Positions 41,114 through 62,922 of a stretch of 64,000 bases of DNA are shown piece by piece. The notes under the pieces are model-generated. The model worked only from the letters and a program-made list of their open reading frames with translations, was not told the DNA's origin and did not search any database. Each line of letters starts with the position of its first letter. Position 1 is the stretch's first letter. Position numbers and translations under genes: made by a program. This stretch comes from Pseudooceanicola endophyticus (GTDB lineage Bacteria; Pseudomonadota; Alphaproteobacteria; Rhodobacterales; Rhodobacteraceae). The DNA is taken from NCBI RefSeq assembly GCF_018760365.1, contig NZ_JAHIAB010000012.1:62001-126000 (forward strand), in the 5' to 3' direction.

Positions 41114-41989
41114 TTACAGCGCCTTCTCGAAGAAGACGTCCGGATAGGGATCCTCATTGAAGCGCGGGATCTCCTGCCAGCCAAGCTTGCGGTACAGCCC
41201 CACCGCCTCCGGCAGGGCCGAATTGGAATCCAGCCGCAGCAGCGTGATCCCCAGCTCCCGGGCGCGGGCCTCGACCTCGGCCATCATCCGCCCCGCCAGA
41301 CCCATGCCGCGCGCTGAAGGCGCGACCCACATCCGCTTGATCTCCGCATAGCCCTTTTCGGTGCCCTTCAGCCCGACGCAGCCGATCGGCATCCCGTCCG
41401 ACAGCGCCAGCAGGAAGCTGCCGCGCGGCGGGCGCATCGCCCCGGCCTCGGGATCTGCCGAAAGCGTCACGTCAAAGCCCTGGCGCAGGCGCCGCGCCAG
41501 CTCGGCGTAATAGGCCTCCAGGCAGGCGATGGCACGCGGGTCGCCCGGATCGACCTCCTCCAGCGTGCTGCGCGGATAAGAAAGCGCGGTGGCGACGATA
41601 TCCATCGCCTCCAGCAGCACCTCGGGGCGGGGATGACGGGCGATGATCTCGGCCGCCTGCACATCCGAGAGCGCCTCGTAGGCGGCATATTCGGCGTCCC
41701 CCGCCGGGGTCAGCGTGGCGATGCGGCGGCGCCCGTCCTCGGGGCTGGGGCCGGTCTGCACCAGCCCCTCCTCTTCCAGCCCCCGCAGCAAGCGGCTCGC
41801 CAGCCCGGAATCCAGCCGCAGGTAGCTGCGGATCTCGGCGATATCGGTGATGCCGCGCCCGATGGCGTTCAGCACCCGCGCCGGGCCAAGGGGCCGCCTC
41901 CGCCCCAGGAAAGACGCATCCAGCACCCCGGCTTCGGTGGTGACGGCACGGTGAAAGCGGCGGGTTCGGGCGATGGAATCGGTCAGCAT
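41114..41989 (-). CDS. MarR-GNAT fusion protein
   Basis: This 291-residue protein joins a MarR winged helix (residues about 10-130; IRSYLRLDSGLASRLLRGLEEEGLVQTG and the wing SPEDGRRRIATLTPAG) to a GNAT acetyltransferase (residues 150-291; IKRMWVAPSARGMGLAGRMMAEVEARARELG with the acetyl-CoA loop, and LYRKLGWQEIPRF). Such fusions regulate genes and acetylate a small molecule or protein. The start ATG 41989 has AGGAGG eight bases upstream. A perfect 20-bp palindrome lies just upstream (42007-42026), surely its own site. It borders the partition locus, but any role in plasmid maintenance is not supported. Confidence 0.9.
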   Translation of the reverse strand: MLTDSIARTRRFHRAVTTEAGVLDASFLGRRRPLGPARVLNAIGRGITDIAEIRSYLRLDSGLASRLLRGLEEEGLVQTGPSPEDGRRRIATLTPAGDAEYAAYEALSDVQAAEIIARHPRPEVLLEAMDIVATALSYPRSTLEEVDPGDPRAIACLEAYYAELARRLRQGFDVTLSADPEAGAMRPPRGSFLLALSDGMPIGCVGLKGTEKGYAEIKRMWVAPSARGMGLAGRMMAEVEARARELGITLLRLDSNSALPEAVGLYRKLGWQEIPRFNEDPYPDVFFEKAL

Positions 41990-42006
41990 CTGGGCCTCCT
42001 TGAAAG

Positions 42007-42026
42007 TACCTGACATATGTCAGGTA
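42007..42026. promoter_or_regulatory. Perfect 20-bp palindrome, probable MarR-GNAT operator
   Basis: TACCTGACATATGTCAGGTA is a perfect palindrome located 18 bp before the MarR-GNAT start. Spacing fits blocking of RNA polymerase by the MarR domain and therefore autoregulation. Confidence 0.65.
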
Positions 42027-42086
42027 AATTTCCGAAGCGCAATTGGCGACGTGGCGGCCCCATTTCCGCCCGGATCTTCCCAGGCA

Positions 42087-42786
42087 TCTTCCCCGCGGGG
42101 AAGACCCGATCCGCCGCCTGCCTCCGGGGCCAGCGCCCTTTCCGTGCCCGGCGCCGCCCTCCCCCCCCCGCGCCGGCCATTCGGCCCCTTCCCCTCTAAT
42201 CTTCCCCGCGGGGAAGCTCCGGCGATCCCCGGCCCCATGCCCGTCCGGCGTGGCCAGGGGCATCCCCTGCCCGCTCCGGACCGGGCCGATGGCGCCCGGG
42301 CGATCTTCCCCATGGGGAAGATCCGGTGCCGGCCCAAGGCCCGGCCCCAACCGCCGGGCCCCACCGCACTCCGGGCCGAAGCGCGGCGCGGCATCGGCGG
42401 CGGGCAACCGCCCCCCGCGCCATCTTCCCCACAGGGAAGATCGCCGCTTTGGCCAGAGCCCTTGCCCCCGCACCGTCAGGGCCCGCCGCGTTTCGTCCCG
42501 GGGTCTCTTCCCCACGGGGAAGACGGAAGCAGTTGCGCGGCACATCCCGGACCTTCCCCGCCGGGAAGGATCCCTGCCGCCGCATCAAACAGGCTGGCGC
42601 AGCGATCCCCGGCCCGCATCCAGACGGCCCCGCAGCCCCCAAGTCCGAGCGCCCCATGTCGCCCCACCGCACCTTCCCCGCCGGGAAGATCCCTCAGGTC
42701 TGACGGGACACCGCGCCCCGCCTCGGCGCAAAGAAAAACCCCAGGCGCCGGGCACCGGGGGTTCGGGGGTCTTCCCTGCGGGGAAG
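42087..42786. repeat. Eight 16-bp palindromes, candidate plasmid centromere (parS-like array)
   Basis: Positions 42027-42787 hold no gene that I can support. Instead there are eight copies of a CTTCCCC..GGGGAAG palindrome, starting at 42088, 42201, 42305, 42424, 42507, 42553, 42673 and 42771 (16 bp each). The central bases vary: CGCG in the first two, CATG in the third (arms extend to 22 bp), ACA in the fourth, AC in the fifth, CGCC in the sixth and seventh, TGCG in the eighth. Spacing is 46-120 bp, mostly near 100. The array lies right after the ParB gene stop (42788), so the copies are strong candidates for the ParB sites of this replicon. Confidence 0.7.
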
Positions 42787-42787
42787 A

Positions 42788-43909
42788 TCAGTCCAGCTGG
42801 TCCAGCATCCGCTTCACCGCCTCTTCCAGCTTGCGCCGGTCGATGGTGGAAAAGTCGCGCTCGAGCCGCAGCTCCAGCCGCCCGTTGGAGGCGGTGCAGC
42901 GCGCGCGCCCCTCGCGGCGCTGGAACTGGAAACTGGTGCGTGCGGTGCCCGGGGTCTTGGCCTTGGGCGCCGGGGTCTTCGGGGCGGGCGCGGCCTCCGA
43001 CAGGCCGGCGTGGCGGCGCAGCACCTCGATCTCGTCCCGGACCGAGCGGTTGTCCATCGGCGCCAGCTCGGCCTTGATGGCGGGCACCACGCCCTCGACC
43101 TCCTCGATCTTCTGGACCAGCGCCAGGCCAAGGGCGCGCGGGATATCGGGGGCGAAACGCAGCGTGTCGCCCAGCCGTGCCATCAGCTTGATGAAGCTGC
43201 GGATGTAGCTGCGCTTCTGGTAGCCGGCGGACTGGAACAGCTCGGCCACCGCCTTGTCCGCATCATCTTCCTGCGTCGAAGGGTCGGCGGCATAGTCGAG
43301 CGCCAGCTGCGCCATCTCGGCAAAGGAGATGTCCTTGCGCACCAGGTTCTCGTCCACCATGCGGCGATAGAGCGTCTCCAGCTCGTCGCCGGGCTGGCTG
43401 ACCGCCGCCGGGATCGTGCCCCAGCGGTCCGTATCGCCGGTCTCTTCCAGCAGCGCGCGATAGGCGGCCAGGCGGCGGAAGCCCTGCACCAGCTCGTAAC
43501 GGCCATCGGCGCGCGCCTCGACCCGGATCGGGTTCGACAGGCCAAGCGCGGCGAGAGACGCCTTCAGCTCTCCCAGCTCGTAGTCGATGCCCTTGGCGCG
43601 GTCGCGCACCAGCTTGGCGGTGTCGATGCTCTCCAGCGGCAGCAGCTCCATGACCAGGCCCAGGCGCTTGAGGCGCATGTGCTCATGGGCCAGGGCATCG
43701 TTCTCGGCGCGGATCTGCGCCTCGATCTCGTGGCGGGCGCGGCTGCTCTCCGCATTCTCGCCGATTGCGGTGGCCATGGGGCCACGCCGGCGCACCGGCG
43801 CCTCGGGCGGGTCTTCCGCGACCTTCCCCGCGGGGACGATCGGTTCCGGTGCGGCACCGGGGGCCTCGTCCGGCATCTCGATGTCGAACATCCGTCTCTT
43901 GCGTGCCAT
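42788..43909 (-). CDS. parB: ParB-like partition protein
   Basis: This 373-residue protein has the ParB N-terminal nuclease-like domain and helix-turn-helix core: LPLESIDTAKLVRDRAKG, LGLSNPIRVEARADGRYELVQGFRRLAAYRAL (the G-F-R-R box II) and VDENLVRKDISFAEMAQLAL. A dimerisation region follows, ending LEEAVKRMLDQLD. It should bind the palindromic array beside the gene and act with ParA for partition. It starts 14 bp after the parA stop. Codons near residue 26-30 (IVPAGKV) run across a degraded palindrome copy (43823-43838). Confidence 0.92.
   Translation of the reverse strand: MARKRRMFDIEMPDEAPGAAPEPIVPAGKVAEDPPEAPVRRRGPMATAIGENAESSRARHEIEAQIRAENDALAHEHMRLKRLGLVMELLPLESIDTAKLVRDRAKGIDYELGELKASLAALGLSNPIRVEARADGRYELVQGFRRLAAYRALLEETGDTDRWGTIPAAVSQPGDELETLYRRMVDENLVRKDISFAEMAQLALDYAADPSTQEDDADKAVAELFQSAGYQKRSYIRSFIKLMARLGDTLRFAPDIPRALGLALVQKIEEVEGVVPAIKAELAPMDNRSVRDEIEVLRRHAGLSEAAPAPKTPAPKAKTPGTARTSFQFQRREGRARCTASNGRLELRLERDFSTIDRRKLEEAVKRMLDQLD
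43823..43838. repeat. Degenerate palindrome copy inside parB
   Basis: CTTCCCCGCGGGGACG differs from the array palindrome by one base in the right arm (C for A). It lies in the N-terminal coding region of parB. Confidence 0.5.
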
Positions 43910-43923
43910 GTCTCAGCCTCCTT

Positions 43924-45219
43924 TCAGACCTTGTCCCAGGCCGCGATGGCGTTGGCCTTGAACTCTTCATAGGCCCGATCAAAGCTCATCCTTGCCCGCC
44001 GCCAGGTCTCCCGCGTCATGGAGCGGTAGTCGATCTCGTAAACCGAGGACAGGAAGCGCCCGGACTGTTCGACGGCCCGGGTCATCTCGATCGGGTGTTC
44101 CGTCACATGATCGCCGAACACCTTTCGGAAGGCTTCCAGCATCGCCCGGTGCAGGTCGTTGCCGGGCTCGTAACGGGTCATCAGGAAGCGGATGTCGGCG
44201 AAGGCCTTGGGCAGGGTGATGTTCCCCGCGGGGAAGGTCCCCGAGAACCCGTGCGAGAGATCCTCCAGCGCCTCGGCCAGCTGACCGATGAAGGAGGTGG
44301 TGCTGTCATATTCCCAGTAGCCGGGGCCGGAGGGGATATAGAGCATGTCGGCGGCGAAGACCGCGTTCATCGACTGGTAGCCGATGGCGGGCGGGCAGTC
44401 GAAGAGGATCAGGTCGTAGTCGTCATCCGCGATGCCATCCAGGTAGCGGCTGACGGCGGCGAAGAAGGTCCACTCCGGGTTCAGGTGGCGGTACTGCGCC
44501 GAGGCGAATTCGACGAAGGCGGCGTTGGCGCAGGAGGGGATGATGTCGATGGTGGACCAGGCGGTGGTCTTGATGAAATCCGCATGGCGCAGCTCGTCCA
44601 GACCCATGTCGCGGATCGAGGCGGGGATCTTGCGTTGGGGCAGGGCGGTGCCCGAGGCGGCGCCGGTCACCGTGGCATTCATCCGGTCGGTTTCGCGGAT
44701 CAGGTCGCGGGCCATGATGCCCCAGACGGTGTAATCCTCGGCCACGTCGGTCAGGCCCATGGAATGGCTGAGCGTCGCCTGGGGGTCGAAGTCCACCACC
44801 AGCACGCGGTAGCCATCAAGGGCGGCGGCATGGGCGAGGTGCAGCGCCACCGTGGACTTGCCCGCACCGCCCTTGAAGTTGGCGACGGCGGCGCGGAAGG
44901 CGCGCTTGCCGGCGGGGCGCTCGGGCATCAGGGACTTGCGGTTGATCTTCATGCGGCGGCGCAGCTCGTTGATCTCTTCCAGAGAGTACCAGCGCTGACG
45001 CCCGTCGGCCTCAACTTCCCCGCCGGGAAGACTGGGATCGGCGGCAAGGCGGCCGCGGAAGGTCGACTGGTTGATGCGGAAGATCAGCTCGGACACTTCC
45101 CAGGACGAGAAGCGCCGCAGCGTCTTGGTGTGTTCCGGGCTGAAGGTCTGCTGCCGGATCCAGCCCTGCATCTTCAGGGATTGCGCCTGAAGCTTTGCCA
45201 GGTCGGTATGGGTATACAT
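43924..45219 (-). CDS. parA: ParA-type partition ATPase (plasmid RepA/ParA family)
   Basis: This 431-residue protein has an N-terminal DNA-binding part (first ~110 residues; VSELIFRINQSTFRGRL and LEEINELRRRMKIN resemble the MerR-like region of large plasmid ParA proteins). A deviant Walker A FKGGAGKSTVALHLAHA lies near residue 114, Walker A' VVDFDPQATLS, and Walker B LILFDCPPAIG. The long N-terminus suggests autoregulation at its own promoter. It is the first gene of parAB. Two array-type palindromes lie inside it (44221 and 45015) and encode FPAGN and LPGGE. Confidence 0.95.
   Translation of the reverse strand: MYTHTDLAKLQAQSLKMQGWIRQQTFSPEHTKTLRRFSSWEVSELIFRINQSTFRGRLAADPSLPGGEVEADGRQRWYSLEEINELRRRMKINRKSLMPERPAGKRAFRAAVANFKGGAGKSTVALHLAHAAALDGYRVLVVDFDPQATLSHSMGLTDVAEDYTVWGIMARDLIRETDRMNATVTGAASGTALPQRKIPASIRDMGLDELRHADFIKTTAWSTIDIIPSCANAAFVEFASAQYRHLNPEWTFFAAVSRYLDGIADDDYDLILFDCPPAIGYQSMNAVFAADMLYIPSGPGYWEYDSTTSFIGQLAEALEDLSHGFSGTFPAGNITLPKAFADIRFLMTRYEPGNDLHRAMLEAFRKVFGDHVTEHPIEMTRAVEQSGRFLSSVYEIDYRSMTRETWRRARMSFDRAYEEFKANAIAAWDKV
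44221..44236. repeat. Palindrome copy inside parA
   Basis: GTTCCCCGCGGGGAAG: the 14-bp core TTCCCCGCGGGGAA (44222-44235) is a perfect copy of the array core. It encodes FPAGN in parA. Confidence 0.65.
45015..45030. repeat. Palindrome copy inside parA (5' part)
   Basis: CTTCCCCGCCGGGAAG, identical to the copies at 42553 and 42673. It lies in the N-terminal coding region of parA (residues LPGGE). Confidence 0.65.
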
Positions 45220-45276
45220 GAAAACCTCAACGTAAATTCTTATCTGTTTCCTAAATACGCTGGATTTGCTTTTTGC

Positions 45277-45293
45277 GTAAAGAGAGAGTTTAC
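45277..45293. promoter_or_regulatory. Inverted repeat upstream of parA
   Basis: GTAAA-GAGAGAG-TTTAC, five-bp arms, lies about 60 bp before the parA start in an AT-rich promoter region (45230-45300). It is a candidate ParA operator. Next to it is a CTTCCCCGCAGGGAAG palindrome at 45305-45320. Confidence 0.4.
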
Positions 45294-45304
45294 TGAACGC
45301 GGAT

Positions 45305-45320
45305 CTTCCCCGCAGGGAAG
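45305..45320. repeat. Palindrome copy in the parA-replicase intergenic region
   Basis: CTTCCCCGCAGGGAAG, the twelfth copy and the only one between parA and the replicase. It could bind ParB and link partition with replication control. Confidence 0.6.
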
Positions 45321-45411
45321 TTTACGGCCTGTGTCCCCGGGGAAACGCCCGCCGAATCGATGCCCTGGCCTGCGCCCTGCCGGATCCGTGCCAAAGCCCC
45401 CGCCCGAGACC

Positions 45412-45500
45412 CGGAATAGGGGACAGTTCGGGACCCAGGCCGCGGAAATAGGGGACATTTCCGGCGGAATAGGGGACACAGGAAACTGTCCCCCAATACC
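45412..45500. repeat. Iteron-like repeats, probable replication origin
   Basis: CGGAATAGGGGACA occurs at 45412-45425 and 45465-45478. A near copy CGGAAATAGGGGACA is at 45443-45457, and an inverted copy TGTCCCCCAATACC is at 45487-45500. An AT-richer stretch follows (TATAATACCCTCC). The repeats lie upstream of the DnaA-like replicase and are typical of initiator-binding iterons. The 45220-45690 gap holds no gene; this is what it holds, with the parA promoter at its left end. Confidence 0.65.
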
Positions 45501-45560
45501 TATAATACCCTCCATTTCATTTCGGTTTCGGATCCTGGACCCGTCCCCTCGGCTGTCTGC

Positions 45561-45589
45561 TTGACAGAATCGAGAAAGCGGACGTTAAT
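45561..45589 (+). promoter_or_regulatory. Probable promoter of the replicase gene
   Basis: TTGACA (45561-45566), 17 bp, then GTTAAT (45584-45589) gives a good -35 and a fair -10. It lies about 100 bp before the replicase start. Upstream iterons overlap the region where the initiator could repress itself. Confidence 0.55.
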
Positions 45590-45690
45590 GGCCACATAAC
45601 GAGAAAGAGCGTTGAGAAGTTCTTTCCGCCCGGGCTAAACAGGCCCCAGAGGACAGGCAGGGGTGCGACCGCGCCCGACAGGAGACGACG

Positions 45691-46368
45691 ATGCAGGTGG
45701 CGAAACCCGCCGGACCGGGCGCGGCGGCGCGCAAATACGACATTCTGTCGGCATTGATGGCCTATGCGCTGGCGGCGGATCGTCTGGTGCAGCGCCGGGT
45801 GCTTCGGATCATGGCCCTGATCACCGCCCGCTACAACTGGAGCCGGGACGAACTTTGCGTCGGCCAGCGCGAGATCGCGCGGCTGTGGTCGGTGGAGGAA
45901 CGCACCGTCAAGCGCGAGATGGCAACGCTGCGCTCCATGGGCTGGCTGGTGCAGAAACGGCGCGGCGCCCGTGGCCACCTGAGCGTCTACGGGCTGGACC
46001 TGGATCGCATCCTGGAGGACACCCGGGGCTGCTGGCCCAATGTCGGCCCCGATTTCGTCGAGCGCATGGACCCCGCGCAGATCGCCCCCGAAGAGACCAA
46101 TGTGGTGCCGCTGCGGGCAGGGCCCGCACCGGTGGCCACGGGCAGCGTCTGGGGGGCCGTGCAGGCGCGACTCCATGCCGAGGACCCGGTGACCTACGGC
46201 GCCTGGTTCCATGCCCTGACGGAGGTCGAGCTGGCGGCGGGGCGGCTGGTGCTGGCCGCGCCCTCGGCCTTCCATGCCAGCTATGTGCGCACCCATCTGG
46301 CGACGCGGCTGCTGGCGGCGGCGCGGCGTGCCGATCCCAGCATCGCCGAGCTGCGCATCGAGGAGTGA
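45691..46368 (+). CDS. DnaA-like plasmid replication initiator
   Basis: This 225-residue protein has a winged-helix part at residues about 25-100 (YNWSRDELCVGQREIARLWSVEERTVKREMATLRSMGWL). The C-terminal ~65 residues (VWGAVQARLHAEDPVTYGAWFHALTEVELAAGRLVLAAPSAFHASYV, written here in pieces: WGAVQARLHAEDPVTY and LVLAAPSAFHASYVRTHL) resemble domain I of DnaA. This layout matches the DnaA-like replicases of Rhodobacterales plasmids. ATG 45691 follows GGAGA. It is divergent from parAB and next to iterons, the gene order expected of such replicons. It lacks the AAA+ and dnaA-box domains of true DnaA. Confidence 0.75.
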   Translation: MQVAKPAGPGAAARKYDILSALMAYALAADRLVQRRVLRIMALITARYNWSRDELCVGQREIARLWSVEERTVKREMATLRSMGWLVQKRRGARGHLSVYGLDLDRILEDTRGCWPNVGPDFVERMDPAQIAPEETNVVPLRAGPAPVATGSVWGAVQARLHAEDPVTYGAWFHALTEVELAAGRLVLAAPSAFHASYVRTHLATRLLAAARRADPSIAELRIEE

Positions 46369-61872: not shown

Positions 61873-62922
61873 TCAGTCCTCGGCCTTGTTCTGGGCGGCA
61901 TAGCCCGCGAAGGTCGCCTCGAAGCGGCTGTTGATATAGGCGCCCGAGGTGATCGGTTCGAACTGCGCGGGGTGATCGGCATCGACGCAGCTTTCCAGCG
62001 GCGTGATCTCGGCGTCGTAGTTCGGGCCGAAGAAGAACGGGATCGAGTAGCGCTCCTTGCCGGAACGGTTGATCGCGCGGTGCACGGTCGAGGCGAAGAG
62101 GCCATTGGTCCAGCGCGCCATCTGGTCGCCGATGTTGACCACGAAATGCCCCGGCAGCGGCGGCGCCGAGATCCATTCGCCATTGGCGTTCAGCGCCTGA
62201 AGCGCGTGGATGTCGTCCTGCGCCAGGATGGTGAAGCATTCGTAGTCGGAATGCGCGCCGATGCCGATCTGACGGTCGTCGATTTCGCCGAACTGGGGCG
62301 GGTAGTGCAGCAGGCGCAGGGTCGCGAGCGGCTTGCTGACCAGCGTGTCGAAGTGATCCTCGGGCAGGTCCAGCGCCAGCGCGAAGGCATGCAGCAGGTT
62401 CCGGCTGAGGGTGATCATCGCGTCGTAATAGGCCTCCACGTCGCCACGGAAGGCGGGCGCGCCCTCGGGCCAGAGGTTCGGACCGTAGAGATTCTTGCCG
62501 GCCAGCACGTCGGGATCGGTCTCGGGGACCTCAAGCGCGATGTCGAAGCTTTCGTGCAGGTCGCCCCGGGCGGTGGGGTCGGTGTTCTCTTCCAGCAGCG
62601 CCGCGTAGCCACGGTTGTTGCGCGACTTCGAGACGTGGATCGCCTGCTTGTCGGCATCGGGGCGCGCGAAGAAGTCCTGCGCGGCGCCGAAGGCCCCGTC
62701 GATGACCGCCTGCGGCACGGCGTGGTTGCGGATGTAGAAGAAGCCAACCTCGGTGCAGGCGCGGCGCAGTTCGGCCGCGAGGCGCTGGCGGGCCTCCTCG
62801 TCGGTGCCGAAGATCGGCGCCAGGTCGATCACCGGCAGGCTGTCGAAGGGCACGCGGTTGGGTTCCAGCCCGGCGCTCTTGAAGGTGCGGGTGCCGTTGC
62901 CGGTTTGCAGCATCGTGGTCAT
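61873..62922 (-). CDS. Isopenicillin-N-synthase-like 2OG-Fe(II) oxygenase
   Basis: This 349-residue protein has the DIOX_N and 2OG-FeII_Oxy domains. The iron ligands are in GAHSDYECFTIL (His and Asp) and STVHRAINRSG (His), and the 2-oxoglutarate anchor Arg is in RYSIPFFFGP. The family is broad (synthases, hydroxylases, ethylene-forming-like enzymes) so the substrate is unknown. It overlaps the LysR gene by ATGA and is cotranscribed with it; LysR is upstream and may control it. Confidence 0.9.
   Translation of the reverse strand: MTTMLQTGNGTRTFKSAGLEPNRVPFDSLPVIDLAPIFGTDEEARQRLAAELRRACTEVGFFYIRNHAVPQAVIDGAFGAAQDFFARPDADKQAIHVSKSRNNRGYAALLEENTDPTARGDLHESFDIALEVPETDPDVLAGKNLYGPNLWPEGAPAFRGDVEAYYDAMITLSRNLLHAFALALDLPEDHFDTLVSKPLATLRLLHYPPQFGEIDDRQIGIGAHSDYECFTILAQDDIHALQALNANGEWISAPPLPGHFVVNIGDQMARWTNGLFASTVHRAINRSGKERYSIPFFFGPNYDAEITPLESCVDADHPAQFEPITSGAYINSRFEATFAGYAAQNKAED

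Follow-up and report, generated by a model that had tools for sequence, protein, structure and literature searches.

A palindrome array around parAB in Pseudooceanicola endophyticus as the probable centromere of a DnaA-like plasmid module, and the ParB residues that covary with it

Introduction

Why should one short palindrome be repeated twelve times around a single pair of partition genes? The question is raised by a 64,000-nucleotide stretch of Pseudooceanicola endophyticus DNA (hereafter the window; positions 62,001 to 126,000 of contig NZ_JAHIAB010000012.1, assembly GCF_018760365.1), in which CTTCCC(N4)GGGAAG recurs between positions 42088 and 45320, around parA and parB and beside a divergent gene for a DnaA-like replicase. 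A previous sequence-only reading of the window had counted twelve palindromes in 3.2 kb around parAB and proposed them as candidate ParB nucleation sites. The count is borne out and exceeds that in shuffled sequence, and nucleation sites are still the best reading, given their fixed places in relatives and a sequence that tracks ParB and not the replicase. We are highly confident that the twelve palindromes are the parS centromere of a ParABS system that a Rhodobacterales plasmid or chromid carries next to its DnaA-like replicase gene. This view is drawn from sequence: where the sites lie and how constant those places are, how the palindrome tracks ParB, the fold predicted for ParB, and the conservation of its cytidine triphosphate (CTP)-pocket motifs.

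Results and Discussion

The array and its genes

Ten of the twelve copies have perfect arms and two have one mismatch (43823 and 44221). Eight are in the interval that separates parB from the neighboring gene at 41114-42016 (minus strand, from the open reading frame [ORF] list), one is in parB, two are in parA, and one is in the parA-replicase gap; as palindromes they have no strand. A palindrome scan placed array copies 2 to 8, counted outward from parB, at 42673-42688, 42553-42568, 42507-42522, 42424-42439, 42305-42320, 42201-42216, and 42088-42103, the outermost about 70 bp upstream of the neighboring gene. The copy at 42771-42786 sits directly 3' of the parB stop, a place conserved in relatives (S4). 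The remaining copies occupy S3 in 5' parB (43823-43838, one arm mismatch), S2 at nucleotide 984 of parA (44221-44236, one arm mismatch), S1 at nucleotide 190 in 5' parA (45015-45030), and S0 about 100 bp before parA in the parA-replicase gap (45305-45320). The eight copies had been described as lying in a gene-free stretch, which agrees with the ORF list, where only overlapping mechanical ORFs fall there, except that the last copy comes within one base of the parB stop codon (42788-42790). The repeat had also been written as CTTCCCC..GGGGAAG with variable centers: the palindrome stands, but the 7-bp arms are exact in only 4 of 12 copies (42088, 42201, 42305, and 42507) and the common arm is 6 bp, while the centers do vary, yet only as an unconstrained 4-bp spacer. 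No tandem unit spans the array, and tandem duplication of a longer unit was rejected as its source because the repeats have little in common outside the palindrome.

The partition genes are both on the minus strand and separated by 14 bp, so that a ParA-type Walker ATPase gene (parA, 43924-45219; 431 amino acids, RepA/SopA-like by profile matches) adjoins the gene for a ParB/RepB-like centromere-binding protein (parB, 42788-43909; 373 amino acids, by profile and fold matches). ParA matched AAA_31 above its cut-off (E 1.2e-26) and TIGR03453 below the curated one (E 1.9e-61). ParB matched ParB_N below the Pfam cut-off (E 2e-4), and a profile search returned Noc, Spo0J, and ParB chains. Its structural model (mean predicted local distance difference test score [pLDDT] 83, predicted template modeling score [pTM] 0.58) has a ParB-type fold, and Foldseek matched it to 7ol9, 7bnr, 8qa9, and 6t1f (Noc-NBS, ParB with nucleotide, KorB, and Caulobacter ParB), with modest template modeling (TM) scores over the query of about 0.2-0.4. 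Residues G143, R145, R146, E187, N188, and R191 were invariant in 50 aligned ParBs; these residues belong to the CTP-pocket motifs. The protein joins a ParB-family fold and CTP-pocket motifs to a helix-turn-helix (HTH), the second helix of which spans residues 230-246 in the model, begins with residue 230, and is the predicted recognition helix. Terminator-like stems lie at 42740-42756 on the minus strand, after parB and the first array palindrome, and probably mark the end of the parAB operon.

The replicase gene (45691-46368, plus strand) was recognized by its DnaA_N domain (E 1.2e-6) and is divergent from parAB, as in the named DnaA-like I plasmids; its product is 56.4% identical to the replicase of S. 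indolifex NZ_CP084953, which PMC9025767 classes as DnaA-like-I. A repABC system would have repC in the repA-repB operon and GTTNNNNGCNNNNAAC as parS, whereas here the replicase is DnaA-like and divergent and the arm is CTTCCC. The module has the layout of Rhodobacterales DnaA-like plasmids. In the parA-replicase gap, three AATAGGGGACA-like direct repeats (GGGGACA; 45415-45478) are possible replication iterons. Such repeats are not general: in the 600 bp preceding parA, at least two exact matches to TAGGGGACA or its complement were found in only 8 of 151 related loci, and three of the eight are TGTCCC-class loci, in which the palindrome itself can match TAGGGGACA.

Enrichment over chance

The window held 17 matches with at most two mismatches, against a mean of 4.75 (standard deviation 2.11, maximum 11) in 100 dinucleotide shuffles. 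Among its 53 exact 6-4-6 palindromes, 10 had the CTTCCC arm and every other arm occurred at most twice. The genome search suggested by the sequence-only reading found exact copies to be local: the 5.2-Mb genome contains 11, all on the 190-kb contig that holds the window (C4), with 10 in the array and one at C4:45048. Window base composition predicts about 0.6 genome-wide, and 0.02 and 0.0004 for C4 and for a 3.24-kb stretch, respectively. With at most one mismatch, the reversed, non-complemented pattern was commoner genome-wide than the palindrome (58 versus 30), so the enrichment is local. The lone copy at C4:45048-45063 (L001), 59 kb from the array, lies right after an apparent gene end; because only 0.02 exact copies are expected on C4, it may be a real, distal extra parS.

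Fixed places and copy number in relatives

Relatives were gathered by tblastn of ParB against plasmid records (603 matched), a ParA profile that matched 180 of 394 family genomes at E <=1e-60 (repABC-type ParA included), and a genome-contig scan from which the best 80 named loci of 557 were kept. The palindrome scan covered 182 loci with a ParA hit; filtering by length and label left 173, and dropping near-identical ParBs left 151. Each locus was classed by its top de novo palindrome family, with a known arm accepted at second or third rank in L145, L149, L155, and L170 and classes set by hand for L031, L126, and L191. We detected nine arm types: CTTCCC, CTTACC, CTTATC, TTTACC (one locus), TTTCCC, GTTCCC, and TGTCCC, plus GTAACC and GTTACC in a distant group. 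Bases at arm position 1 were mixed in L128 and several TTTCCC loci.

The search of relatives, also proposed at the outset, recovered the palindrome at fixed places around parAB. Among 77 CTTCCC-class loci, S0 (about 100 bp before parA) was filled in 30, S1 (parA nucleotides 187-190) in 50, S2 (parA nucleotides 978-987) in 73, S3 (5' parB) in 68, and S4 (directly after parB) in 66. For the 59 of 151 loci with enough upstream DNA, we compared 2.8-kb par regions with same-size upstream controls: at least two exact copies of one palindrome were present in 56 of 59 par regions, and every control had at most one. Allowing one mismatch, 58 of 59 par regions had at least two copies and 8 of 59 controls had two or three. 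At L050, L052, L053, and L072 the usual places are empty, and a DnaA-like replicase was not detected nearby.

At the parA-internal site the commonest peptide differs by class (CTTCCC, FPAGK; CTTACC, LPTGK; TGTCCC, VPAGT), and conservation of its fourfold third positions is 0.93-1.00 among CTTCCC loci, compared with a mean of 0.66 for the gene; selection there keeps the DNA, not the peptide. In parB, site 43823 codes for VPAGK in the window and FPAGK in most aligned relatives, a short stretch that sits in an otherwise variable N-terminal part of the alignment.

The number of sites had been stressed as a departure from the single chromosomal parS, an emphasis to be revised, as multiple sites are normal in this plasmid family. 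In the 145 loci (of 151) tallied, the commonest number of sites near parAB was four (46 loci), then three (36) and five (25). The highest counts were 12 in the window and in L133, a second system of the same genome, and 11 in L015 and L163, of which 8, 12, 8, and 7, respectively, lie after parB. The eight copies after parB in the window are best read as a local lineage expansion of the usual three to five in total, and since three different palindromes are found among these four loci, array growth seems to have happened on more than one occasion.

Palindrome class follows ParB

For 121 loci with ParB, ParA, and replicase (Rep) all present, and with the distant group left out, we asked how well protein distance predicts that two loci share a palindrome class. 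The area under the curve was 0.965 for ParB, 0.907 for ParA, and 0.781 for Rep, and partial correlations with class were 0.52, 0.16, and -0.06. These values indicate that the palindrome sequence tracks ParB rather than the replicase.

Scanning all 373 ParB positions in 144 loci, we found that residue 230 ranked top for arm bases 1-2 (0.93 label entropy; next 0.64), while residue 231 ranked top for bases 4-5 (0.77; next 0.73) and second by a stricter measure. In a set of 168 loci, the pairing of residue 230 with bases 1-2 fits 167 (Y with CT in 97, R with TG in 32, K with GT in 27, and P or A with TT in 11), the sole exception being an R with GT. Four mixed loci in this set (L200, L207, L215, and L217) were given a single class by hand, and L126 was counted as CTTACC; the pairing holds in 163 of 164 when those four are removed. 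On a ParB tree of the 168 loci from which columns 226-245 were left out, there are 9 changes in bases 1-2, 8 in residue 230, and 9 in the combined pair, giving 8 coincident switches, compared with about 65 changes for shuffled labels. Other columns (80-372) that share seven of the switches change 43-96 times, and K192 shares six and changes 15 times. Only two to three independent pairs were available among the first 121 loci for a pairwise sign test of residue 230, which put significance out of reach. The pairing of residue 231 with bases 3-4 is looser (Q with TC in 115, T or V with TA in 20, M with AA in 19, and S with TA in 8 of the 168 loci), and six TC loci lack Q231 (S in four, T in one, and N in one).

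The rule was then checked on 28 further regions, of which 25 were used: L218 and L219 had no parB, and L220 was set aside as already known, matching D. shibae pDSHI02 in length and sites. L220 has S231 with C at base 4, contrary to the looser 231 rule. A de novo palindrome family was found in 23 of the 25, and the residue 230 prediction was right in 22, counting as predicted L207, which has A230 and a mixed first base; L215 was half right (CG and TG). The rule as formulated permitted TG or GT for R230, and several R230 loci had a mix of T and C at base 1 with G constant at base 2. In L200 and L217 the sites were found by targeted search only and agree with the rule, with mixed first bases. L202, L207, L210, and L217 have a nearest ParB of a different class, yet residue 230 was correct in each. 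Q231 occurred with C at base 4 in 17 of 17 loci and other residues with A in seven of eight. The distant group, which played no part in making the rule, had K230 with GT in 22 of 22 loci, M231 with GTAACC in 19 of 19, and T231 or V231 with GTTACC in three of three; five of the 22 have a single site (L147, L149, L153, L154, and L155). Twelve named plasmids, picked from 60 listed of the 603 records and read with an assumed base register where centers were of odd length, gave K230 with G at base 1 in seven of seven (L221 by one site), R230 with GT in two, and no repeat in three. Five plasmids with another replication initiator and the same divergent parAB layout (L223, L224, L227, L228, and L231) have GTTTCG-armed palindromes near parAB, with centers partly of odd length.

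Taken as a code, Y230 would read CT, K GT, and R TG or sometimes GT, while P or A would read no clear base 1 and then T; at 231, Q would read TC, T or V TA, and M AA, and S would be permissive. We think it likely that residues 230 and 231 together set centromere identity and that this identity can be re-keyed stepwise through half-and-half sites, which would help several plasmids share a cell. Arrays of this kind are already known; a search of titles and abstracts in the open-access literature found no report of a residue code for these plasmids.

Intermediates and coexisting systems

Loci with mixed arms look like natural stages of such a specificity switch. L126, which has T231, carries seven sites near parAB that each join a CTTCCC- or CTTCTC-type half to a CTTACC-type half and are possibly natural asymmetric parS sites, and L031 and L035, with S231, mix CTTCCC and CTTTTC halves. 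Plain CTTCCC sites accompany S or T at 231 in L036, L037, and L104.

The genome of the window holds two systems, one with Y230, Q231, and CTTCCC and the other (L133) with K230, M231, and GTAACC. The latter has 12 copies of GTAACC(N4)GGTTAC after its parB at C29:3777-4248, spaced 37-70 bp apart. A thirteenth at a contig edge (C21:29-44) points to an assembly break within the array; every exact copy in the genome is on C29 or C21. Strong ParA matches of the window group numbered 96 in 96 separate genomes, when about 10 genomes with two would be expected at random, and 13 genomes had one member of each of two groups; these counts scored only four candidates per genome, so the pattern is suggestive. 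Among the candidates scored, members with different parS were not seen in the same genome either, so parS alone does not explain compatibility.

Comparison with known systems

The module of parAB and a DnaA-like replicase is that of Rhodobacterales DnaA-like plasmids, for which Petersen (2011, Mol Biol Evol) reportedly proposed conserved palindromes as centromeric anchors; the expanded array, the intragenic sites, and the residue code are not known to be part of that work. KorB of RK2, whose structures 8qa9 and 8qa8 are among the fold matches of the window ParB, likewise belongs to the ParB family and has about 12 palindromic operators on a single plasmid, but these are spread over the plasmid and act in gene control, whereas the window has its 12 within 3.2 kb of parAB.

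In papers on Rhodobacterales repABC plasmids, parS sites and a multi-copy locus are described (PMC9040568), palindromes are diagnostic of compatibility groups (PMC5613091, PMC9426580), those of RepABC-9 are named (PMC3910554), and those of RepABC-1 and RepABC-2 differ by a single reciprocal base exchange (PMC9040568, PMC5613091, PMC9426580). As in the window, these are palindromes of 14-16 bp beside partition genes, have a ParB-type reader, and are commonly present in several copies. The repABC consensus, GTTNNNNGCNNNNAAC, usually lies between repB and repC, with two to four copies after repC; the window family differs in having up to 12 sites, in the fixed positions that some of these occupy within the parA and parB genes, and in its divergent DnaA-like replicase. 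In the ParB/Noc switch (Jalal 2020, PMC7383237), a few DNA-contacting residues set base preference, permissive changes exist, and the residues that read half-site bases 1 and 6 are 173 and 201. In the window family, by contrast, the first two residues of the predicted recognition helix (230 and 231 in window ParB numbering) pair with bases 1-2 and 3-4.

Alternative explanations

Could the palindromes instead be iterons or control sites of the DnaA-like replicase that mark the replication origin? They flank the replicase module, one copy falls in the parA-replicase gap, and nearby copies are absent from the Donghicola-type loci in which no replicase was detected. Most window copies, however, are within or after parAB and distant from the replicase, the partial correlation with Rep is the -0.06 given above once ParA and ParB are accounted for, and D. 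shibae pDSHI02 has three copies (two exact, one with a mismatch) beside a mere Rep fragment. The separate GGGGACA repeats (45415-45478) are more iteron-like, though at least two occur in only 8 of 151 relatives. We consider a replicase role very improbable. Even less probable is that the sites are operators only, serving parAB autoregulation, gene 41114-42016, or another repressor. Such a role would suit the copy about 100 bp before parA and the one at 42088, about 70 bp before gene 41114-42016, and KorB, a structural match of ParB, acts as both repressor and partition protein. A pure operator has no need of copies at fixed places inside parA and parB, though, the genes after parB differ among relatives, and the local clustering makes a whole-genome regulator unlikely; a consensus scan of 41900-45750 found no sigma-70-type promoter, which is weak evidence in such DNA. 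Least credible of all are RNA hairpins, terminators, or chance in GC-rich DNA. The arms are G+C-rich, the window is 70% GC, and the copy after parB is at a possible terminator spot; against this stand the strong excess over shuffles and over all other window palindromes, the lack of a T-run after any of the 12 copies on both strands, terminator-like stems (42740-42756) distinct from the palindromes, copies inside parA and parB, and a class that switches with ParB residue 230.

Several observations weigh against the centromere reading. Class changes on 140-locus trees numbered 12 for ParB, 13 for ParA, and 14 for Rep, which hardly separates the three as carriers of class, and for this reason we relied on distances and single columns. 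Six of the 182 ParA loci have no palindrome class (L050, L052, L053, L072, L120, and L136); L120 is apparently the same locus as L052, and no parB was found in L136. In the Donghicola loci L052, L053, and L072, the only CTTCCC-like sites lie 4-7 kb past the parA start, and L050 has just a two-mismatch match in the region scanned. These loci lack both a detected Rep and nearby sites and, taken alone, are compatible with a Rep role. The array also sits between parB and the start of gene 41114-42016, and it may have a role in controlling that gene. The parS reading is nevertheless the one we prefer, with palindromes clustered at the par locus that coevolve with ParB.

Proposed mechanism and implications

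In a ParABS system of this kind, the HTH of a ParB dimer would read each half-site, and ParB would load at parS and spread, probably with CTP, while ParA would move the ParB-parS complexes apart at division. We infer these steps of binding, spreading, and segregation, as well as any benefit of many copies: the eight after parB may give a larger or more robust partition complex, and through the site before parA, ParB may tune its own operon. If the palindromes are indeed parS, the ParB encoded at 42788-43909 would prefer CTTCCCCGCGGGGAAG over GTAACCCGTGGGTTAC and TGTCCCCGCGGGGACA. The fixed sites, the expansions, the half-and-half sites, and the simple rule suggest that ParB specificity is largely predictable from sequence, which bears on the standing question of why many low-copy plasmids in one alphaproteobacterial cell do not interfere with each other.

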